From positions 1 to 64,000 of the IMG/VR virus record IMGVR_UViG_3300034407_003411: 64,000 nucleotides of DNA; one strand, 5' to 3'. Position numbers and translations under genes: made by a program. The notes below the pieces were generated by a model. That model was not told where the DNA came from. It was given only the letters and a program-made list of their open reading frames with translations, and searched no databases. Of the stretch, positions 1,984 to 31,697 are shown piece by piece (the stretch's first letter is position 1; every line of letters starts with the position of its first letter). The stretch comes from a virus.

Positions 1984-2012
1984 AATATACGAACCCTTTT
2001 AAAATTGTCCAA
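1984..2012 (-). promoter_or_regulatory. Host-like promoter before the gp44/gp62 operon
   Basis: On the minus strand TTG (2012-2010) is followed by 20 bases and then TATATT (1989-1984), preceded by TTCG. This fits the Bacteroidota pattern of a TTG -33 box and a TAnnTT -7 box. The ATG at 1977 begins six bases after TATATT. The -33 box lies inside the end of groEL. Confidence 0.6.
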
Positions 2013-3660
2013 CCGGAAGTCCTTGATTATTTGCTAGATTTCCTGTTGTAGCATCTTGTAAGATTCTCATTTTTTCTTCAATACTATTTTTATCTTGAGT
2101 AATTGTACACTCAGTTAATAAAACAGTTCCTGCAACTGATGCTGCATTTTCAAGTGCTAGTCTTGTTACTTTTGTTGGGTCAATAATACCAGCATCTTTC
2201 ATATTAACAACCTTTTCAGTTTCAATATTATATCCTGCCCAAGCATCATTACCTGAGTTACATAATTGATCTGCTAATATTTGTCCCTTAACATCAGTAT
2301 AACCAGCATTAACTAGAATCTGAGTAAACGGTTTAGAACAAGCTCCAAGTACAATTCTAGCTCCTGTAGAATCAGCTTTAATACCATTAGAAGCATATAA
2401 TAATGCTGCTCCACCTCCTGGTACTACACCTTCTTCAATTGCTGCTTTTGTTGCATGTAAGGCATCATCAACTCTATCTTTCTTCTCTAGCATTTCAGTT
2501 TCAGTGTTACCACCTACATGAATAATTGCTACTCCTCCGACGAATTTTGCCAATCTGTTTTGGAGTTGTTCTGTTTCGTACGGGGTTTGGGCTTTTTCGA
2601 TTTGCGATTGTAGCTCTTCAACACGTGCTTCAATTTGTTCAGCTGTTCCTTTTCCATCTACTATTGTTGTTTGTTCCTTCGTTACTGTTGCTGTTCTTGC
2701 TTCACCAAACCAATCCCAACTGAATTTGTCTAGTTTCATTCCTTTTTGTTTATCAAATACTTTACCACCAGTTGTGATTGCAATATCTTCTAAAACTAAT
2801 TTACGTCTATCACCAAAATCAGGTGCTTTTACAGCACACACATTAATTGTACCTCTCATTTTATTTACAATCAAAGTTGCTAATGCTTCATTATCAATAT
2901 CTTCAGCAATAATCAATAATGATTTACCTTGAGATGATACTGCTTCTAAAATTGGTAATAATTCTTTAACAGAATTTAATTTATGATCCATAACTAATAC
3001 CGCAGGGTTATCTAAAACACATTGCATTGTATTATTATCTGTTACAAAGTAAGGTGATTTAAATCCTCTATCGAATTGCATCCCTTCTACTGTTTCAAGA
3101 TATGTATCTCCTGTTTTAGATTCTTCAATATGTACTACACCTTCTAAACCAACTTTTTCAATTGCTTGAGAAATTAGTTTTCCAGTTTCTGGGTCGTTAT
3201 TAGATGATATAGTGGCAATTTGTTCTAATTGTCCTTCTTCAGAAATATCTTCTGATATGTTGTTTCTTAGATTGCTAACAACTTTTTCTACTGTTTTATC
3301 AATATCTCTTTTAATTTGAACAGCATTTTCATTATTATTTAAAGCATCTAATCCACTTACTACCATTTCTCTAGCTAATAGTGTTGATGTTGTAGTACCA
3401 TCACCAGCTTTATCTGCTGTTTTTACAGCTGCTTGTTTAAGTAAAACAACTCCTAGTTCTTCACTTGGGTCATTTAATATAACTGATTTTGCTACAGTAA
3501 CACCATCTTTTGTTGATTGTGGTGGTGCTCCTACTCCTTTAAAAATAACAACATTTCTACCATTAGGTCCTAATGTTGATACTACAGCATCAGCTAATTT
3601 ATTAATACCTTTTACAAGACCTGTTCTTGCATCTTTACTATATTTAATTTGTGTTTCCAT
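1999..3660 (-). CDS. groEL: Phage GroEL chaperonin (60 kDa)
   Basis: A full-length (553 aa) group I chaperonin. Visible family signatures are LGPNGRNVV near residue 31, the ATP-binding [11 protein letters not shown] near 86, and the late hallmark [13 protein letters not shown] near 405. With GroES it forms the folding cage in the cytoplasm. The usual Gly-Gly-Met C-terminal repeats are missing; the protein ends LPVGQF. An insert-like, strongly charged coil lies in the region 330-375. It sits six bases after groES and ends just before the gp44 operon promoter. Most T4-like phages encode only a GroES substitute (gp31), so a complete phage GroEL is notable. Confidence 0.97.
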
Positions 3661-3666
3661 ATTATT

Positions 3667-4026
3667 TTAAATGTCAGTTAAATTTTCTTTATCTTCTTCA
3701 GTTACTTCAGTTTCAGCTAATACTTCTTCTACTGATTGTTGTACTTTTGCTAATATTTGGTTTTCAGGACCAACATAATACTCTTCACCATCAAATGGTA
3801 ATTTAGTAAAACCTTGAGTTGGTAATACAACTAAGTCTCCAACTTTTACTTGCATAGGAATATGATTGCCACTTATAGTAAATCTACCAGTACCAACTGC
3901 TATTACTTCACCAAACTCATTTTTCTCTTTCCCCATATCAGGGACAATAATATTTCCATAAAGTGTTTCTTCGTTTTCAATGGGTTTAACGATAACCGCG
4001 TCAAATAGTGCTTCAAGCTTTTTCAT
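3667..4026 (-). CDS. groES: GroES-type co-chaperonin
   Basis: The protein has 119 residues and the GroES beta-barrel pattern: an N-terminal LFDAVIVKPIE strand, a mobile-loop region (YGNIIVPDMGKEK, residues 23-35), the GEVIAVGTG strand and a KVGDLVVLP segment. An extra acidic tail of about 25 residues follows residue 95. It plays the role of T4 gp31, which lets GroEL fold the large capsid protein gp23, here together with the phage's own GroEL. The start ATG overlaps the end of the upstream 103-residue gene. Confidence 0.92.
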   Translation of the reverse strand: MKKLEALFDAVIVKPIENEETLYGNIIVPDMGKEKNEFGEVIAVGTGRFTISGNHIPMQVKVGDLVVLPTQGFTKLPFDGEEYYVGPENQILAKVQQSVEEVLAETEVTEEDKENLTDI

Positions 4027-4408: not shown

Positions 4409-4828
4409 TTACTTAATTTTAACTGATTTTGGTTTAGCTTCCTCAGCTAATGGTATAAAAATTTCTAATAAACCATTTTCTAAGGTGGCATCAATTTTAC
4501 CTAAATCAAATTTAGGTGCTATTTTATACCTTAAATCAAATGATTTTTTAGATAAACCATTATGAATCATTCCATCAGGGAAGTCATCTTCTGGTTTGTT
4601 ATAACTTATTTTTAAAGTATCCCCTTCAATATCTAAGACTACGTCTTTTTTAGTTAGACCAGTACAGGCAACTTCAAAATGAAGTCCGTTATCGTCAAAG
4701 AAAATATTAAGTGGATGTGGTTGTTTGAAATTTCCAACAGGTTGAAATGTGCTGTCAGAGTTAAAGTGATTCCTAAAAAGGATGTCGAAAGGACTTATAT
4801 GCCTTTCAAAGATTTCTAATGTACTCAT
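4409..4828 (-). CDS. hsp20: Small heat shock protein Hsp20
   Basis: A 139-residue protein with an alpha-crystallin domain from about residue 40 to 130: PHPLNIFFDDNG, then EVACTGLTKKDVVLDIEGDTLKI, and the late LENGLLEIFIPLAEE segment that corresponds to the A-x-x-n-G-v-L motif. It ends PKSVKIK, like many sHsps. Such ATP-independent holdases are common in cyanophages and related T4-like phages. It lies upstream of groES/groEL and probably belongs to a chaperone set. A 5' leader of about 90 bases with a weak hairpin separates it from its promoter candidate at 4920-4948. Confidence 0.92.
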   Translation of the reverse strand: MSTLEIFERHISPFDILFRNHFNSDSTFQPVGNFKQPHPLNIFFDDNGLHFEVACTGLTKKDVVLDIEGDTLKISYNKPEDDFPDGMIHNGLSKKSFDLRYKIAPKFDLGKIDATLENGLLEIFIPLAEEAKPKSVKIK

Positions 4829-15451: not shown

Positions 15452-15469
15452 TTTATTTTTATTCTTTGT

Positions 15470-15540
15470 TGTCTCGACAGGTCTCGAACCTATACTCTTC
15501 TGGACCAAAACCAGACGTGTTACCAATTACACCACGAGAC
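15470..15540 (-). tRNA. tRNA-Gln (anticodon TTG)
   Basis: The 71-base minus-strand sequence folds into a cloverleaf: a 7-bp acceptor stem (GTCTCGT with TCGAGAC, last pair mismatched), D arm with GGTAAC, anticodon stem TCTGG/CCAGA with loop TTTTGGT, and T arm with TTCGAGA. Anticodon TTG is at 15508-15506. The discriminator base is A; the CCA end is not encoded. Glutamine tRNA is not a queuosine target, so the nearby que genes are not explained by it. Confidence 0.93.
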
Positions 15541-15548
15541 ATTTAAGT

Positions 15549-21601: not shown

Positions 21602-21611
21602 TTATAAATAT
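21602..21611 (-). promoter_or_regulatory. Late-type promoter motif
   Basis: Minus strand ATATTTATAA (followed by TCACAA), in the 63-base gap before the holin-like gene. It matches the motif found between virion genes. Confidence 0.45.
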
Positions 21612-22033
21612 TAAAATCTGTTGGAATTTTGCGCTTCTTCGATAGCTTCATTTACTTCTTCTACGCTTACAGGAAATTCTAGATCTAATCCTGCTTTAAA
21701 TTTAATTAAATTATCTCGAGTTATTATAAACATAGTTGGGGCCATTCTAATTCTATATTTTTTCTTTGCTTCTGGAGCTTTAGCTATATCTACTCTATAA
21801 TAATCTACGCCTGGTCTATCTGCTAAATCTTTCCAATTAGGGTAACAATTTATTTCATTAAATTTAGCCCAATATTCAACTACTATTACTTTATTATCAT
21901 CATCTCCAAAGGCAGAATTACCATTTACAACTTCTTCATAGTTTGAATCATCTAACCAATATTTTTCTGGAACGTCTTGTTGTCCTAAAAGAATTAAAGG
22001 CATCAATGAAAACAATATTAGTAAATTTTTCAT
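21611..22033 (-). CDS. Exported thioredoxin-fold protein without CxxC
   Basis: The 140-residue protein has a signal peptide (MKNLLILFSLMPLILLGQQ). A thioredoxin fold is suggested by VIVVEYWAKFNEINCYPNW, then YYRVDIAKAPEAKKKYRIRM and the cis-proline APTMFII. At the active site position only one cysteine remains (NEINC), so disulfide oxidoreductase activity of the classical type is unlikely. It would act in the periplasm. It ends the row of exported-protein genes. Confidence 0.75.
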   Translation of the reverse strand: MKNLLILFSLMPLILLGQQDVPEKYWLDDSNYEEVVNGNSAFGDDDNKVIVVEYWAKFNEINCYPNWKDLADRPGVDYYRVDIAKAPEAKKKYRIRMAPTMFIITRDNLIKFKAGLDLEFPVSVEEVNEAIEEAQNSNRF

Positions 22034-22036
22034 ACG

Positions 22037-22321
22037 TTATCTTTGTTTAGACATCTCGTACATACGTTCTTCTAGCTTATCAAATTTTTCTAAAAGCATT
22101 TCAACGTCTTCTTGAGTGTCCATTATTGTTTGGCGAATTAACTCATCCTTTAAGTCATATTCAACCCTTTCAATAACTGGTTCTGGTTGTGTTGCAGCAT
22201 ATGCTATATCTGCCTTTAATGTAAAATACATACCTGCTAGAGAAACAGTAAATGCTACTATCATTCCAATAGTTTTTAAATCTAAAGTTATTTTAGTATC
22301 TTCTCCTATTTGCTTTGCCAT
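22037..22321 (-). CDS. Single-pass membrane protein with coiled coil
   Basis: The 94-residue protein has one transmembrane segment (TIGMIVAFTVSLAGMYFTL, about residues 17-35) and a C-terminal helix with heptads (VEMLLEKFDKLEERMYEMSK). The start codon overlaps the stop of the outer-membrane candidate by one base. It lies in the exported gene group. Function unknown. Confidence 0.65.
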   Translation of the reverse strand: MAKQIGEDTKITLDLKTIGMIVAFTVSLAGMYFTLKADIAYAATQPEPVIERVEYDLKDELIRQTIMDTQEDVEMLLEKFDKLEERMYEMSKQR

Positions 22322-23514
22322 TATTTAAAAGTATAATTTAATCCGAAGGTTGTTTGATATAATTTGCTATCCCACATTTTAGAATATTCACCTTCTATAA
22401 AAATTCCTAAATTTTTTCCTATTTTAGTTCCTAAATTAACACCAAAAGAATAATCGTGCCACTGTTCACCTTTTAAATTATTATTATGACCACCTAATCC
22501 CCAGCTATTTCTATGCATGTAGCTAAAATCTTCTTCTCCTCTAATATATCTGTGGTATGGTAAAATATAATTTGCGTATGCATGTAACCAAAAATCTCTT
22601 TTATAATGGTAAAAATCTACACCTACTATTGGAGCTAAATCTAACCAAGGATCTAATAAATCCCAAGCTTCACCATTAAAGCGATTCATTAACCCAGGCA
22701 TTATAATTTCTCTAAATTCTAAATCTGTTTGAGCAACTTCATTTCCGTCTGCATCAATCCAATACCAATCTTGAATTTGATTACCATTATTGTCTGTACG
22801 AGTATAGAATATATCACTAAAACCATATTCTCTACCTAATTCATACCATTGGTTAGTTGGATATTGATTTCCGAATTCATCAACTGTCATTTCATTTAAC
22901 CAAATTTCTACAGGATTATAACCATAAGCTCTTTCATGTCCTCTTAATATAGCTCCAGCTGAAAAACTAAACTTTTTTCCTATTGGTAATCTACCTCTTA
23001 CTTCAGCTGAATTGTATTTAAGATTAATTTTACCTACTTCTCTAGCTTGTAATTTTACAATATGATATTTGCCTGTATGTTTTAGAAAATAATTATAGTT
23101 GGTAAAATCTTCTCCTCTCCATCTTTCTTTTTCATAATGGAATTGATATTCTAATCCTTGTACTGCTGATGTTGGGGCAGAAAATACTAATTGTTCTTCT
23201 GTACCATCATAGAAATTTTTTGGTTTTCTTTCATAGTCAAATCTGGCTAGTTTTCTTATACCAAATCCGTATCTGTAGTCAAAAGGGTATTTTGGAGTGT
23301 TATCAACTACGTCAGGAATTGAATATAAACTTCCATCTTGGTTTGTTCTTAAAAAATAAGTAGGCTCTGCAGCCTCAATTGAATTTGAAATATCACCAGC
23401 GGCATATACAGTACCATATTTTAAGAAATCTTTATAGATATCTTTAAAAATTTGGGCTTGTAAAACAGTTGGTGAAAATAAGATAAACGAAACAATTAAT
23501 ACTAATATCCTCAT
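22321..23514 (-). CDS. Outer membrane beta-barrel candidate
   Basis: The 397-residue protein has a signal peptide (MRILVLIVSFILFSPTVLQAQ) and a mature part rich in Tyr, Trp, Phe and alternating patterns (YQFHYEKERWRGEDFTNYNY; FWLHAYANYILPYHRYI). It ends with the strands GIFIEGEYSKMW and TTFGLNYTFK, whose last residues match an outer membrane C-terminal signal. Barrel nature is inferred. It is in an operon-like run with a CsgG-like gene. Confidence 0.65.
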   Translation of the reverse strand: MRILVLIVSFILFSPTVLQAQIFKDIYKDFLKYGTVYAAGDISNSIEAAEPTYFLRTNQDGSLYSIPDVVDNTPKYPFDYRYGFGIRKLARFDYERKPKNFYDGTEEQLVFSAPTSAVQGLEYQFHYEKERWRGEDFTNYNYFLKHTGKYHIVKLQAREVGKINLKYNSAEVRGRLPIGKKFSFSAGAILRGHERAYGYNPVEIWLNEMTVDEFGNQYPTNQWYELGREYGFSDIFYTRTDNNGNQIQDWYWIDADGNEVAQTDLEFREIIMPGLMNRFNGEAWDLLDPWLDLAPIVGVDFYHYKRDFWLHAYANYILPYHRYIRGEEDFSYMHRNSWGLGGHNNNLKGEQWHDYSFGVNLGTKIGKNLGIFIEGEYSKMWDSKLYQTTFGLNYTFK

Positions 23515-23574: not shown

Positions 23575-24015
23575 CTAAAATTTTATTCGATCAATTGCCT
23601 TTTTTACCGCAGAAGAAAATGTTGTTTTATTAAATGGTAATTTATCATTATTTAAATCAATAAAAGTTGATTCAACTGTAGATTTAGCTTTACCAATTAC
23701 TTCAATTTCTTTGCCATCTATATAAACTGATAGTTTAACAATTGTCTTTTTTGCAGCTTTACTCCAAACTCCAAATTCAATACTTGTTGTTGGTGCTTCA
23801 ATGGATTTTACTATTACTGTTATAGGTTTTCCATCCATACATAGTTCATATTTATCTGAAATTACATCTTCCATTATTTGTTTTATACCAAATATTATAC
23901 GGTTTTTACTAATTTCTTCCATTTGAACCTGTGTACTTACTTTAGTTACCGTATAACATTCTTGTGATAATGCAAATACAGGTAAGCACATTAATAGTAT
24001 AATTATTTTTTTCAT
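23575..24015 (-). CDS. Small exported protein of the CsgG-like cluster
   Basis: The 146-residue protein has a signal peptide (MKKIIILLMCLPVFALSQ) and a mature part of mixed beta and alpha (VTKVSTQVQMEEISKNRIIF, then VIVKSIEAPTTSIEFGVWSK). The final FNKTTFSSAVKKAIDRIKF resembles the end of the CsgG-like protein at 25155-25859 (FNKSTIGIATKKALESG), so the two may be related domains. Function unknown; periplasmic location is predicted. The gene is separated by one base from the next. Confidence 0.65.
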   Translation of the reverse strand: MKKIIILLMCLPVFALSQECYTVTKVSTQVQMEEISKNRIIFGIKQIMEDVISDKYELCMDGKPITVIVKSIEAPTTSIEFGVWSKAAKKTIVKLSVYIDGKEIEVIGKAKSTVESTFIDLNNDKLPFNKTTFSSAVKKAIDRIKF

Positions 24016-24016
24016 A

Positions 24017-25174
24017 TTAAAATCTTATTTTACCACCAGTTAATACCTGGAAGTTTAATGCATTTCCTTGTGAATGCCAAACTCCAGTAAAACTGATATT
24101 ATATTTAAATGTTTTTGTTATTTTTATATCCCATGAACTAAAAGGTACTATTAACATACCTGGATCCCACCATTTACCTTCATAATATTGAGTAAATGGA
24201 GAATAAACACCTAATAGTAAAGCTGATGTTGTAATTTTTTCATTAATTTTAAAATTTCTATGTATCCCAGCTACTGATGATATATTTTGTAGTTCTCGTT
24301 TACCTAATTTACCTATTGTAAGATTAATACCAGCCATACCTGTAAATTTCTTTTTATAAAATTTAAAGGATTCTAAAACAGTAGTTGTATTTAAATGATT
24401 TAAATTCCAATCTGTCATTGTAGTATTTGCACCTACTAAATTAAATGTTCTGTTTGGGTTAATCCATGATTTATAAAGTGTTAAACTAAAATCATTAGTA
24501 ACAGATGTATATGTAAGTAAAGCTCCTTTAATTCTAGTTTGTTCTGTATTGGCGTGTGTAATTGAACTAACTACTTTTACTTGTCTACCATTTGAATTAT
24601 CTTGATTATCAATAACTACAATATCACCTGATGCTATCAATGAACCAGCATTTTTATTAGCTTCTGCACTTCCACCATCAGCTGCATTTGAAAGAGAATT
24701 AGCTAGTGAAGTAGCAATAGCCCCTTCAGCTTCTTCTTCTTCATTTTCCTCATCACCCTCACCTGCAGAATTATCTATTGCTTCTGCTACTGGAGCTGCT
24801 GTAGATGATGCTGCTTGAGGTAACATATCTCCTCCTAATATAGACATTATATTTGTAACAACTGTAATTGTATTTTGTACTGCTGCTGAGTTAGCTGTGT
24901 TTAATAATACTTGAGTTACACTTTGACATGGACTTGAAGAATTAGCTTGAGTAACTAAGTCTAACCAAGAATCAAAAGTACCATTAGAAAAGTCATCTTG
25001 AGTAAATGTTTGAACATTACCAAAATAATTTAATGCAACATTATTACTACCACCTATTTGAATTGTTTGTTGAGTTAAAGTACAAGGATCTGTAAACGTA
25101 TAAGACCATTGGCCATAACTTACCAGTGGTAAGAGAAATAAAATTAATAATATTTTATTCTTTAAATATTCCAC
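24017..25174 (-). CDS. Exported protein with probable C-terminal beta-barrel
   Basis: The 385-residue protein has a signal peptide (KILLILFLLPLVSYGQ), an N-terminal region beginning WSYTFTDPCTLTQQTIQIGG, a low-complexity acidic linker (EGDEENEEEEAEGA, about residues 138-151), and a C-terminal half with amphipathic strands (FSLTLYKSWINPNRTFNLVG to NFQVLTGGKIRF). It overlaps the CsgG-like gene by 20 bases. In curli systems CsgF works with CsgG; similarity to CsgF is not clear by eye. Outer membrane location is predicted. Confidence 0.6.
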   Translation of the reverse strand: MEYLKNKILLILFLLPLVSYGQWSYTFTDPCTLTQQTIQIGGSNNVALNYFGNVQTFTQDDFSNGTFDSWLDLVTQANSSSPCQSVTQVLLNTANSAAVQNTITVVTNIMSILGGDMLPQAASSTAAPVAEAIDNSAGEGDEENEEEEAEGAIATSLANSLSNAADGGSAEANKNAGSLIASGDIVVIDNQDNSNGRQVKVVSSITHANTEQTRIKGALLTYTSVTNDFSLTLYKSWINPNRTFNLVGANTTMTDWNLNHLNTTTVLESFKFYKKKFTGMAGINLTIGKLGKRELQNISSVAGIHRNFKINEKITTSALLLGVYSPFTQYYEGKWWDPGMLIVPFSSWDIKITKTFKYNISFTGVWHSQGNALNFQVLTGGKIRF

Positions 25175-25859
25175 GTTTTATCATCCTTTTTACGATACGG
25201 GCAGTTCCAGATTCTAAAGCTTTTTTAGTAGCAATTCCTATTGTGGATTTATTAAATTGAACTTCATTATCCTCTCCAATTTGAGATCGTTTAATTGTAA
25301 CAGCTTCACCACTACCACTGCCTGTAAAAATAGTTCCAGTCTCAGCATTAACAAATCTTACTTGCATACCAATAATGGTTTTTAATACAGTTTTAACTCC
25401 ATTAACTGTAACTTCTTCTTCCTCAGAGATAGAATAATCATAGATTTCTACATATACAAAATATTCTGCTAAGACAACATTACCTATAACTTGAATATCA
25501 TTTGCTGATATACCTTTAGCTGCGGCTTGATGTTGCTTAACCATTCTTTGTTTAATTTCTTCTTTATCTTCGGTAAATAAAAATCTATCAGTCCATTCTA
25601 AATAAGATAAAGTAATATTACTAACACCTAATCCTACTCTATTTTCTCTTAATTCAGGGTAAAATTCATATAATTCTGGTGTAAAGCCAATATTTAAGAC
25701 TTGAATTGGTAATTGATAATCTAACATATAATCAGATACTTCATCTATGTCAGCATCTTGTTCAAATTTACCTTTATAATTTTCTGTTTCAGTTTTACCT
25801 AATTGAGCATTAACTGTAAAACTTAAGAGTAACGATATGATTAAAAATATTCTTACCAT
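25155..25859 (-). CDS. CsgG-like exported protein
   Basis: The 234-residue protein has a signal peptide (MVRIFLIISLLLSFTVNAQ) and resembles the CsgG/LpoB-type fold: long strands with VLAEYFVYVEIYDYS, then TIIGMQVRFVNAETGTIFTG, and a final helix (STIGIATKKALESGTARIVK). CsgG forms the outer membrane pore that exports curli subunits in Gram-negative bacteria. The signal peptide here lacks a lipobox cysteine, unlike CsgG of E. coli, so a typical lipid-anchored CsgG is uncertain. CsgG-like genes have been reported from marine myophages. Confidence 0.6.
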   Translation of the reverse strand: MVRIFLIISLLLSFTVNAQLGKTETENYKGKFEQDADIDEVSDYMLDYQLPIQVLNIGFTPELYEFYPELRENRVGLGVSNITLSYLEWTDRFLFTEDKEEIKQRMVKQHQAAAKGISANDIQVIGNVVLAEYFVYVEIYDYSISEEEEVTVNGVKTVLKTIIGMQVRFVNAETGTIFTGSGSGEAVTIKRSQIGEDNEVQFNKSTIGIATKKALESGTARIVKRMIKRGIFKE

Positions 25860-26110
25860 GTTATTTCTTCTTTTTTTTCTTCTTTTTTAGGAGGTATAAC
25901 TATTGTTTTAGAAATTACAATAGTATCTTTAGAAGTTGATGGTGGGTTAATTCTTTGTTCCATTATAGGTGGTTCTGCAACTTCTTCCTTAGGGGAAAAA
26001 ATTGATTGCATATTAGCTATTAATAATGCAAAAGCTGCTGTTATAACTAATCCTATACCTGTTACTATTTGGTTTTTAATTTCCGAAAAAAATCCTTTAT
26101 TTTCACTCAT
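25853..26110 (-). CDS. Single-pass membrane protein
   Basis: The 85-residue protein has one hydrophobic segment (IVTGIGLVITAAFALLIANM, residues 15-34) and a periplasmic-type tail rich in Pro, Glu and Lys that ends KKEEKKEEITW. It overlaps both neighbours by a few bases, so it is part of the exported gene operon. Function unknown. Confidence 0.6.
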   Translation of the reverse strand: MSENKGFFSEIKNQIVTGIGLVITAAFALLIANMQSIFSPKEEVAEPPIMEQRINPPSTSKDTIVISKTIVIPPKKEEKKEEITW

Positions 26111-26841
26111 TTTTTAATTATTTTAAATGTTTTAACAAATCTACCATTAGTTACTTGTAGCAAATAAATTGCAGATGCTAAATCTGATAGATCCATTTGG
26201 AATGAAACGTAACCACTAAAAAATCTCTTTGTAGTTGATTTCATTAATGTTCCGTTATACGTAATTACTCTAATTGTATAAAAATCATTATCAGGTACTG
26301 TTAATTCAAATGTTAATGGACCTGATACTGGAACTGGGTATACTATACCATAAATGCCATCTGCTGGTTGTGTATTGAATGGAAGTGACATTTTATTAAC
26401 ATATCCATCTGTGTTATCAACATCAATATCCCACCCTAAATCTGTACCTGCTGTTTTTCTTCCTATAGTAATTGGTATTTCAGTCCAATTTTGATCAATA
26501 ACCTTAAATCTTACTGTAAATAATTCAGTTGTATTACTTATAGTAAAGTTACCAAAAGAGGCATCATAACCTCCCCACCTTACTTTTTCACCTTCCCAAT
26601 CCTGTGTATATGTTAGCCATTCTTGTGCTTTAGCTGTTACAGTAATTTCCTCAAATTTTAAGTATTGAGAATCAAAATTTAAAGCAAATTCTAAACTTCC
26701 AACTGTTTCTCCTGATGTTTCAATTTCTACAGGTAAATTAATATATTCACTAACAGGAACCTCAATCTCAGGTACGTTAAATACGACCTGAGAATGAGCT
26801 ACTGTTGTTATTGTTAGTAATAATATTAATAATAATCTCAT
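26107..26841 (-). CDS. Exported protein with cohesin-like domain and T9SS sorting signal
   Basis: The 244-residue protein has a signal peptide (MRLLLILLLTITTVAHSQ), a cohesin-like beta domain (about 20-150: VGSLEFALNFDSQYLKFEEI, ELFTVRFKVID), and a C-terminal type A sorting domain of the type IX secretion system (168-244: VYPVPVSGPLTFEL, then YTIRVITYNGTLM, then DLASAIYLLQV and FVKTFKIIKK). T9SS is found only in Bacteroidota and relatives, so the phage appears to use the host's T9SS to place this protein on the cell surface or outside. Confidence 0.85.
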   Translation of the reverse strand: MRLLLILLLTITTVAHSQVVFNVPEIEVPVSEYINLPVEIETSGETVGSLEFALNFDSQYLKFEEITVTAKAQEWLTYTQDWEGEKVRWGGYDASFGNFTISNTTELFTVRFKVIDQNWTEIPITIGRKTAGTDLGWDIDVDNTDGYVNKMSLPFNTQPADGIYGIVYPVPVSGPLTFELTVPDNDFYTIRVITYNGTLMKSTTKRFFSGYVSFQMDLSDLASAIYLLQVTNGRFVKTFKIIKK

Positions 26842-26844
26842 TTA

Positions 26845-27927
26845 TTAATTTAATCCTGTTCCATTAACATCACCTAATATTAACATATAGAAATTACCAG
26901 TTGTAGTTCCATTTATATTTGGTGATAAGAATTCTACTAGACCTGGTATTGAACTAGACTGATCTGAAGTTGCATTATTAATAGTATTATATTGAGCTTC
27001 AGTAAAGAATAACACATCTGGGTTTATAGGATAACCTGTGCCGTTTTGTGCTAATCTAGCAAATAATAAATAAGAATCTGCTACTGTAATTCCATTTGTT
27101 TGGTTTATATTACCAGTATAAAATTGTATACCTGATGTTGCTTGTGCTCCTGCTGCTATTTGAGCAATCATATTAGCATCAGCTGTTGATAAAGCTGTAC
27201 TTGCATTTAAGCCACTTGCAATCTTAAGTCTAATCTGCCAGTAATCTTGATCTAGATTTGCTGAGAATGTTGCTTTTCCATCTGCTCCAGTTGTTACTGT
27301 AGCTACATCTGTCCAAGAACTACCATCTGCAGATTTTTGTAAAATTACAGGGATAGATTCAGCTGGATTAGAAGGATTATTTAGAATAGTTGCTGCATAA
27401 TCAAATGCTGGTTCTGTAAAGTTACCACCATTATCGGAAGTGCCTAAGACAGCATCAGTACCATCAGCTTTTGCATAATAAGCAGTTAAGTTGTTAGTAA
27501 AATCAATGTCAGCAACTGCACCATTAGTATAACTAGATTTAAATGGTAATGAGACATCAAACATATTACCTGCAGTAATATCAAAAGTAGTAGTACTACC
27601 AGTATAAACCCATACAACTTTTACTACACCACTTGCTATACTTGTAGATAAATAAGCATCAGTACCTGAGGTATTGTTGTAAGTTACAGTTGGAGGATCA
27701 AATACATTTACATCATAATTAAAAGAAAATTGAATACCTTTTACTTTAGTACCTGAAGTATTGTCATAATAAAGATCAATTACAGTTGGATTTGATGAAT
27801 TGGTAGATTCTAAAGCATAACTTGAATCAAGAATCACATAAGGCTTAGTAGCATCAGGTGATGTGGTTTGGGCATAAATCATGGTTGTTAGCATTAACCC
27901 CGCTAACGTTAAGAGTAATTTTTTCAT
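26845..27927 (-). CDS. Exported cohesin/dockerin-like protein
   Basis: The 360-residue protein has a signal peptide (MKKLLLTLAGLMLTTMIYAQ), a cohesin-like domain (about 30-150: VKGIQFSFNYDVNVFDPPTV, GNMFDVSLPFKSS), and a dockerin-like part (about 245-297) made of LSTADANMIAQIAAG and YTGNINQTNGITVADSYLLF, which recalls the calcium loop of dockerins but with Asn in place of some Asp. A last GDVNGTG near the end may be another loop. No T9SS domain is visible. It is preceded by a late-type motif at 27949-27958. Confidence 0.7.
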   Translation of the reverse strand: MKKLLLTLAGLMLTTMIYAQTTSPDATKPYVILDSSYALESTNSSNPTVIDLYYDNTSGTKVKGIQFSFNYDVNVFDPPTVTYNNTSGTDAYLSTSIASGVVKVVWVYTGSTTTFDITAGNMFDVSLPFKSSYTNGAVADIDFTNNLTAYYAKADGTDAVLGTSDNGGNFTEPAFDYAATILNNPSNPAESIPVILQKSADGSSWTDVATVTTGADGKATFSANLDQDYWQIRLKIASGLNASTALSTADANMIAQIAAGAQATSGIQFYTGNINQTNGITVADSYLLFARLAQNGTGYPINPDVLFFTEAQYNTINNATSDQSSSIPGLVEFLSPNINGTTTGNFYMLILGDVNGTGLN

Positions 27928-27963: not shown

Positions 27964-29163
27964 CTAATTCTTATGTCCCGCTCTTATTAAATAAAATATA
28001 GTAGAATCACCATTACTTCGATCAAATAGACTATAACTTCCATATCCAAAATTTTCAGATTTGTCATCAGTATCTGTGTCTAGAGGATCCCAAAAATATG
28101 GAGCTTGTTGGTAATGGAAAACTTTTGTAGAAGGAGTAGTATTAGAATACTGTGTAAATATACCATTCATATAAGCTAACATAGAATATAAATCTGCAAC
28201 ACTAAATTTCCCGTCATTATTAACATCCATTCTCCAATAATCTTTAGAATTATAAACCCCACTAATTAATTTACTAGTAAAGTAACTGATATCATTTAAA
28301 GTAGGTATTGATAATGCAGGTTGTACTATATCAATTGTGTAATCATAGCTATTATAATCTAAAGTAGTATTAAATGAATAATATCCATTTGAATTTGTAG
28401 TTGTAGTAGCTTGCGTTGTATATGAAAAGCCTACTTGGTTTTTATTTTGAGTTTTTAGTTGTACTGTAACCCCAGATAAGGCTTCTTCTTCTGCTCCGTA
28501 AACATATCCAGTATGAGTTATAGGTTCAAAATTAGGATCAGTAGCAGACCACTCTCCAAATGGATGTGAAGAACCATTTGAACCGCCTAGTTGATTATAG
28601 CTACTACCATTTGGTATTTTATATTGAAAATTAGCAGCACCTACACCACCATAATTTTGAATTCTATATTCAAACTCATACCATGTATCTTTATCTAGAG
28701 TTGCTGTACCATAAGCCCATACATTCCAACCATAATGTTTAGTAACTATATCATCAGTTTTACCAATACCTTTAATCATAAACTCATGTGAGTCATCAGT
28801 ATATGTTCTAAATGAATATAGGCCTGTTTTATTAGGTTTTACCCAACCGTGATAGATAATTGCATATCTTTCTCCAACTGCATCCCACCTTGGTGGGTTC
28901 CATAATTGTTGTGGGGTATGATTACCGCCTCTTGGTCCTTGATAACTTAATATATCAACAGTTGTATCTAAATAAAGTGTAGTACCATTAGAACTAAGAT
29001 TAACCATGTTGTCAAACTCTATATGAGAATTAGCATTACCTGAATATCCAGTCCCTGAAGTACCAGCACCATAGTGAGTCTTAAGTGATCTTAAGTTTAC
29101 AGTAGTCTGTGCATTTATGAATCCACTAATTAAAATTAAAAAGCAAAGTATTCTGGTTTTCAT
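27964..29163 (-). CDS. Exported protein with PA14 and dockerin-like domains
   Basis: The 399-residue protein has a signal peptide (MKTRILCFLILISGFINAQ), a PA14-like domain (about 95-185: YAIIYHGWVKPNKTGLYSF, then YTDDSHEFMIKGIG), a carboxypeptidase-regulatory-like domain (218-280: GYVYGAEEEALSGVTVQLK) and a dockerin-like segment (288-334: LNDISYFTSKLISG, then MDVNNDGKFSVADLYSMLAY). PA14 domains bind glycans or proteins. The dockerin-like part could pair with the cohesin-like proteins from neighbouring genes. It overlaps no gene and starts 6 bases after nrdA ends. Confidence 0.8.
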   Translation of the reverse strand: MKTRILCFLILISGFINAQTTVNLRSLKTHYGAGTSGTGYSGNANSHIEFDNMVNLSSNGTTLYLDTTVDILSYQGPRGGNHTPQQLWNPPRWDAVGERYAIIYHGWVKPNKTGLYSFRTYTDDSHEFMIKGIGKTDDIVTKHYGWNVWAYGTATLDKDTWYEFEYRIQNYGGVGAANFQYKIPNGSSYNQLGGSNGSSHPFGEWSATDPNFEPITHTGYVYGAEEEALSGVTVQLKTQNKNQVGFSYTTQATTTTNSNGYYSFNTTLDYNSYDYTIDIVQPALSIPTLNDISYFTSKLISGVYNSKDYWRMDVNNDGKFSVADLYSMLAYMNGIFTQYSNTTPSTKVFHYQQAPYFWDPLDTDTDDKSENFGYGSYSLFDRSNGDSTIFYLIRAGHKN

Positions 29164-30881: not shown

Positions 30882-31697
30882 TTATTTATTACTTTCTGCT
30901 GTTACTCTTACATTTGAGATAGTATATTCTGATCCACCTTTACATAAATCAGACCAACCACTACAATTAGGGTCACTATAATTATATAAATTATCAGGAT
31001 TAGGTGAAAATCCTTGCCATAATGAAGCAACAACTTTATATCCTTTTTCCATGTTTTCTTTTAAACCATCTAAGCTAGTTAATCCACTTCCTGGACCTGC
31101 TTCATTATTTTTAAAATCATATACTACTACACTATTATCTCCTTGAACATAAGTAGTTGTCATATTAGTATAATCATCATTAAATTCAGTTACAATATTA
31201 AATGGTAATGAAGGATCTATTTTACTTGCATCTACAATACCAGTACCAGTTGTTCCAGTAAAACAAGAAGTATCTCCTCCTAAAAATGCCCATTGATAGT
31301 TTTGAATTTTATTTATGTGTATTGTTGCCTGAGTAGCTACATTTCCATTAGTTTCTAAAAAATCTATTTCATCACAACAGTTTGTACAACCATCACCAGA
31401 ATCACAATATTCTGTTTCATTCATAACTAAATAAAAAGTTGCATTAACAAACTTTTGACCTGCTAATTTTGAAATATCTACTGTTGCTGAGATTTTAGAA
31501 ATATTTTTATACCCTTGAGCAGAACGAACTCTACCTGGGTTAAAAAATACCTTATCTTCTCCAATTACAGGAGCACCTTGATCACATCCTTGATTTGCGT
31601 CAAGATTAAAAGTAGGGGTAAATTCTTGTACTGAAACTTCCGAATTATTACATCCTATAAAAATAAGAGATAATAAAATAATTAAATAATTTTTCAT
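30882..31697 (-). CDS. Lipoprotein with glucanase-like (GH16/GH7) motif
   Basis: The 271-residue protein has a lipoprotein signal (MKNYLIILLSLIFIGC) and from residue 50 a beta-sandwich-like pattern. The segment CTNCCDEIDFLETNGN (104-119) contains E110-I-D112-F-L-E115, the ExDxxE catalytic signature of clan B glycosidases (GH16, GH7), and the preceding Cys pair and following ETN resemble GH7 cellobiohydrolases. A secreted glucanase-like role is an inference. It lies between nrdB and nrdA, where such a gene is unexpected. Confidence 0.7.
   Translation of the reverse strand: MKNYLIILLSLIFIGCNNSEVSVQEFTPTFNLDANQGCDQGAPVIGEDKVFFNPGRVRSAQGYKNISKISATVDISKLAGQKFVNATFYLVMNETEYCDSGDGCTNCCDEIDFLETNGNVATQATIHINKIQNYQWAFLGGDTSCFTGTTGTGIVDASKIDPSLPFNIVTEFNDDYTNMTTTYVQGDNSVVVYDFKNNEAGPGSGLTSLDGLKENMEKGYKVVASLWQGFSPNPDNLYNYSDPNCSGWSDLCKGGSEYTISNVRVTAESNK

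Follow-up and report, generated by a model that had tools for sequence, protein, structure and literature searches.

The locus raises the question of why a phage should encode a protein that ends in a sorting domain of the type IX secretion system (T9SS), and what such a protein would do for the infected cell or the virus. The window analysed is a stretch of 64,000 nucleotides, positions 1–64,000 of the 64,587-base virus record IMGVR_UViG_3300034407_003411; the gene, here called A1, lies on its minus strand. An earlier note, made from the letters alone, had described the product as a phage protein with a signal peptide, a cohesin-like domain and a type A sorting domain, seemingly exported by the host's gliding/secretion system. 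All three elements are confirmed.

26107–26841, minus strand: A1, the putative anchor protein; signal peptide 1–18, cohesin 21–128, T9SS type A sorting domain 167–244
26110–26343, minus strand: T9SS type A C-terminal sorting domain (CTD) of A1, residues 167–244, matched by TIGR04183 and PF18962

The A1 open reading frame starts with ATG and encodes 244 aa without an internal stop. The search with sorting-domain models that the earlier note had proposed as a check matches its C-terminus above the curated cut-offs of both families: TIGR04183 [NCBIfam, residues 167–244 of 244, 33.4 bits (cut-off 23), E = 3.2e-8] and PF18962 [Pfam, residues 167–241, 29.7 bits (cut-off 27), E = 8.1e-7]. A six-frame family search of the whole record places PF18962 at 26119–26343 (31.4 bits, E = 1.3e-8), which is the only match to this family in the 64,587 bases. 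The cohesin domain (PF00963, residues 21–128) also scores above its curated cut-off in Pfam [33.9 bits (cut-off 24.1), E = 4e-8], and the N-terminus passes a simple signal-peptide heuristic (hydrophobic core plus small-x-small). A profile of 18 A1 homologues reaches the C-terminal ends of the solved proteins 5jvk (E = 7e-5) and 9whd (E = 0.002); the solved sorting domain 8glj is matched weakly (E = 0.23 with this profile, 0.03 with a profile of the fused family described below). In the model of a fused homologue (L098) the CTD fold is all-beta, with pLDDT of about 50–79. Published work reports that secretion requires a type A CTD and that the CTD suffices for export of proteins fused to it (PMC10202324, PMC12618676), and export of A1 by the host T9SS is therefore the natural inference, one that the sequence makes highly probable.

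The record has a T4-like core (phrog_213, portal; phrog_138, major head protein; phrog_23, tail sheath). Among cultured phages, the Flavobacterium immuto phages (160 kb, from the Baltic Sea) are the closest relatives in A1, the sheath and A3 (below); their gp015, annotated 'cohesin domain-containing protein', shares 52% identity with A1 and is found in the same gene order. The earlier note had taken the sorting domain to fix the host phylum; a Bacteroidota host is corroborated by these Flavobacterium-infecting relatives, rather than fixed by the domain. Elsewhere on the minus strand, GroEL-like, GroES-like and small heat-shock protein genes (assigned by eye) lie close together at 1999–4026 and 4409–4828, and there is one tRNA gene (15469–15541, Rfam RF00005). 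A 271-aa putative lipoprotein encoded between ribonucleotide reductase genes (30882–31697, minus strand) resembles the GH7-family glycosyl hydrolase structure 8pof (E = 1.3e-5), has EIDFLE where the GH7 protein has ELDIWE, and is without a match in 50,697 phage records.

Scans of viral contigs found A1 homologues at 47 loci and A3 at 151, of which 80 were kept; these 80 correspond to 57 distinct A3 sequences, since the locus counts include near-identical contigs. A1 homologues occur in a split form, as in the window, and in a form fused to the neighbouring gene. TIGR04183 is matched by 18/18 diverse split-form homologues and PF18962 by 15/15 fused-form homologues, so that the sorting domain is kept in all 33 diverse phage homologues tested. 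The 22 phage records searched whole (76–434 kb) each hold exactly one PF18962 match. Pairwise dN/dS ranges from 0.08 to 0.49 in the CTD versus 0.06 to 0.28 in the cohesin, and by these sequence comparisons purifying selection acts on the CTD in the set of phage homologues examined. Its constraint is looser than that of the cohesin, as expected for a signal that is read by fold and not by sequence (PMC12618676). A vestigial CTD was set aside because of its retention in 33/33 homologues and dN/dS values below 1. One A1 homologue (L044, 5998–6408) has a stop after residue 136, with tblastn similarity running on to the end.

The fused form was also sought in 84,980 bacterial and archaeal genomes by a scan that rests on two short motifs and may miss distant cellular relatives; it gave one match, on a contig carrying the same phage module. 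This contig (L130, RFPL01000028.1), binned into a Sphingomonadaceae metagenome-assembled genome, was rejected as a cellular homologue, as the phage module lies on it and it holds the genome's only CTD match. Its fused cohesin–T9SS module stands beside a 1762-aa protein and so probably belongs to a different type of phage.

The single protein of the earlier note proves to be one member of a larger, conserved module of several envelope genes, which also encodes dockerin-like partners and a protein of CsgG fold. On the minus strand the genes run in the order A6, A2, A1, a transmembrane (TM) protein, A3, A5 and A4.

27964–29163, minus strand: A6, exported, 399 aa; PA14-like head, CarboxypepD_reg/SdrD_B-like linker, dockerin-like C-terminus (DVNNDGKFSVAD); signal peptide by eye
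26845–27927, minus strand: A2, exported, 360 aa; cohesin-like N-terminus, Ig-like middle, dockerin-like C-terminus
25853–26110, minus strand: TM protein, 85 aa; one N-terminal TM segment, charged tail with terminal Trp
25155–25859, minus strand: A3, exported, 234 aa; CsgG (curli pore) fold
24017–25174, minus strand: A5, exported, 385 aa, family unassigned; conserved N- and C-terminus, low-complexity middle
23575–24015, minus strand: A4, exported, 146 aa, family unassigned
21611–23514, minus strand: further envelope genes of the run, outside the demonstrated conserved core

Gaps between the genes of the module range from 36 to −20 nt, consistent with one operon, and the TM protein gene overlaps A1 by 4 nt. 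An A1-family protein precedes A3 in 73/73 A3 loci with at least 2.6 kb upstream, A5 and A4 follow A3 in 66/66 with at least 4.5 kb downstream, and a TM protein occupies the corresponding position in L002, L003, L004, L098 and L106. On gene order the operon-like block is conserved in several phage lineages. It adjoins nrdA and replication genes, away from the tail genes. The PHROGs collection holds no family for A1, A2, A6 or A5, and its matches to A3 and A4 are uninformative. A similarity of A4 to ribosomal protein S1 (E = 2e-4; 0.006 in another search) was judged to be chance because A4 is exported. The run at 21611–23514 encodes a 397-aa exported protein (barrel-like by eye, without a Pfam match), a 94-aa TM protein and, at 21611–22033, an exported thioredoxin-like protein (E = 8e-5, slightly under the Pfam cut-off), with signal peptides called by eye.

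A3 is recognized as CsgG by fold only: PDB profile searches do not find CsgG by sequence, and Pfam CsgG is matched in only 2/19 A3 members (best E = 0.0012). The AlphaFold model of A3 (pLDDT 74) has CsgG or curli complexes as all of its top 18 PDB matches (best E = 7e-9, TM about 0.45), and as modelled A3 has the CsgG fold. The CsgF and CsgE partners and curlin repeats have no Pfam match in the A4 and A5 representatives, and profile comparisons found no similarity to CsgF of phage HTVC008M.

In a sister clade (L087–L129, L130) a single open reading frame of about 630 aa takes the place of A2 and A1. This fusion is Rosetta-stone evidence that the two proteins work together. A tree of the cohesin–CTD part divides the split from the fused forms with full support, so that a single fission or fusion would be enough to explain them; the split-form A1 has its own signal peptide and has retained the CTD, an argument for the importance of both. 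The best PDB matches of the fused L098 model are the CipA cohesin–X–dockerin structures (4fl4, 3kcp, E ~1e-6) followed by many cohesins; overall confidence in the model is low (pLDDT 61, pTM 0.43), with the dockerin region below 50. With a profile of the fused family, the ScaB dockerin is matched at E = 6e-4 and T9SS CTD structures are matched weakly. A6, A2 and the fused proteins end in C-terminal domains that align with each other and have in common a stretch resembling a Ca-binding loop, for example DVNNDGKFSVAD. This dockerin-like domain has one canonical Ca-binding loop; the second repeat is degenerate and displaced by an insertion. Dockerin_1 (Pfam) is matched in 7/15 fused proteins and in none of the window's own proteins. 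A2 and A6 have signal peptides and lack a CTD of their own.

The relatives of A6 bear varied N-terminal heads (C-type lectin, lectin plus LamG, GEVED, PA14, Ig_7 or unrecognized) on one conserved C-terminus. Pfam makes no call in the head of the window's A6, which aligns with the PA14-headed protein of L045. Scans of the dockerin-like partners gave no enzyme or carbohydrate-binding module match.

The arrangement points to a scaffold of sugar-binding proteins, made by the virus and displayed on the surface of infected cells. In the most likely reading, the host T9SS serves the phage to place a mini-scaffoldin on the infected cell, whose glycan-binding heads would serve receptor masking or adhesion; the best overall explanation is that A1 anchors a surface-display module encoded by the phage, and we give it somewhat better than an even chance. 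The degenerate dockerin repeat, the low confidence of the fused model, the lack of a sorting domain in A2 and A6 and the nearby lysis genes (below) speak against it. As the sequence has it, Sec would take A1 to the periplasm, where the host T9SS would recognize the type A CTD and move the protein across the outer membrane to end surface-attached or released. Domain content, the A1–A2 fusion and the fold matches point to a second step, in which the A1 cohesin and the cohesin- and dockerin-like parts of A2 would build a mini-scaffoldin and, on it, hold the dockerin-like A6, whose interchangeable head would bind glycans. Assembly by cohesin–dockerin pairing is slightly favoured on these sequence and model data. 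As A2 and A6 have no CTD, they would leave with A1, or via the CsgG-fold A3 helped by A4 and A5. The last step is speculative: the displayed heads may cap host surface glycans during infection and so prevent superinfection and the loss of progeny on debris. This masking idea is modelled on superinfection-exclusion proteins such as T5 Llp and differs in detail (PMC9586334); masking as the purpose is possible but on the whole doubtful. The full picture, of several Bacteroidota phage lineages building an infection-specific, scaffoldin-like surface complex that is T9SS-anchored, assisted by a CsgG-like pore and equipped with swappable glycan-binding heads, is put forward tentatively, at a little less than an even chance.

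The main alternative to masking is adhesion to, or capture of, neighbouring cells. With the displayed scaffold, a cell that is infected or dying would bind its neighbours or particles (sibling capture), and new hosts would thereby reach the progeny. The heads of the A6 type are of adhesin and lectin kinds, and sibling capture has been proposed for the pelagimyophage CsgF/CsgG cluster, which includes a PA14 and curlin-repeat protein (PMC7029224); against this, no clumping was seen for phage Melnitz, which bears CsgGF (PMC9004378). Gene neighbourhood alone does not separate adhesion from masking, and we judge adhesion fairly unlikely. A device for lysis or exit, in which A3 opens the outer membrane late and the cohesin/CTD protein positions or gates it, would fit too, because several lineages have lysis-type genes close to the module: the window encodes DUF5675 (Pfam), L098, L106 and L120 encode GH19/PG-binding endolysins, and L089 encodes a GH19 protein and a holin. 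A lytic role has also been suggested for CsgGF of Melnitz (PMC9004378). It would leave the exported, CTD-tagged cohesin and the swapping of extracellular glycan-binding heads unexplained, however, and is rather unlikely.

Ig-like domains are common on phage virions, and head swapping resembles the evolution of receptor-binding proteins, so A1 and A6 might be virion parts (tail-fibre accessories) with the CTD a neutral or structural Ig domain; yet the members carry signal peptides, their genes lie beside nrdA and replication genes rather than tail genes, and the sorting-domain models are matched specifically, at the extreme C-terminus, in 33/33 homologues, which makes this very improbable. Host-gene contamination or a chance C-terminal match could be argued from the great abundance of T9SS CTDs in Bacteroidota (PMC10202324), but the module recurs in cultured phage genomes and dozens of viral contigs with conserved gene order, and the single hit of the short-motif scan of 84,980 genomes lies on a phage-module contig; this reading can be given next to no weight.

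The proposed surface-display module anchored by A1 has likenesses to several known systems. Cargo of the T9SS type A class includes RemA and AmyB of Flavobacterium johnsoniae. Like such cargo (PF18962/TIGR04183), A1 combines a signal peptide with a type A CTD at the extreme C-terminus; unlike the usual cargo it is phage-encoded, has a cohesin as passenger and is exported by prediction. In the fused form the likeness to the CipA scaffoldin (4fl4, 3kcp) lies in a cohesin, an Ig-like X module and a dockerin in one chain. The phage proteins differ from CipA in the terminal T9SS CTD and the degenerate dockerin repeat, and neither a carbohydrate-binding module nor dockerin-bearing cellulases were found. 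The dockerin-like partners carry lectin, PA14, GEVED or LamG heads, which places the module outside the definition of a cellulosome.

Phage-encoded T9SS type A cargo has been reported before, in the 76-kb Cryophage (Bellas et al., 2020, PMC7468147), as three variable genes (endoglucanase, GH39 and PA14), in a paper that mentions no cohesin, dockerin, CsgG or curli. In a viral structure library the phage protein A0A6J5M064 is already named for its sorting domain. Common to Cryophage and our module are phage proteins bearing T9SS type A sorting domains; here, by contrast, there is one CTD per record, inside a conserved cohesin/dockerin/CsgG-fold block. Phage CsgG clusters were reported in 2020 in pelagimyophages (PMC7029224). 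The CsgF–CsgG cluster of pelagimyophages and Melnitz (PMC7029224, PMC9004378) resembles the module in having a CsgG-fold pore gene in a T4-like phage with an exported, PA14-headed protein nearby, and differs from it in that the module has a T9SS anchor and cohesin/dockerin parts, with CsgF match and curlin repeats not found. In HTVC008M, the hypothetical protein gp018 near CsgFG (L131, 10638–11963) has PA14 and curlin repeats and is a candidate displayed adhesin, unnamed in the record. Comparison of the A9, A10 and A11 profiles with the HTVC008M curli-cluster proteins found no homology, and the two layouts appear analogous, without detectable sequence homology.

No report of a combined cohesin/dockerin, T9SS and CsgG-fold module was found in the open-licence literature, where the conserved combination of T9SS and CsgG fold with cohesin/dockerin parts appears to be unreported. 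An isolated report of phage T9SS cargo is thereby extended to a module that is conserved and widespread and that can be tested in culture, in the immuto phages on Flavobacterium sp. LMO8. If the proposed explanation is true, phages use a cohesin/dockerin-type assembly and the secretion machine of the host itself to remodel the host surface, in parallel to the CsgG/curli clusters of SAR11 phages.
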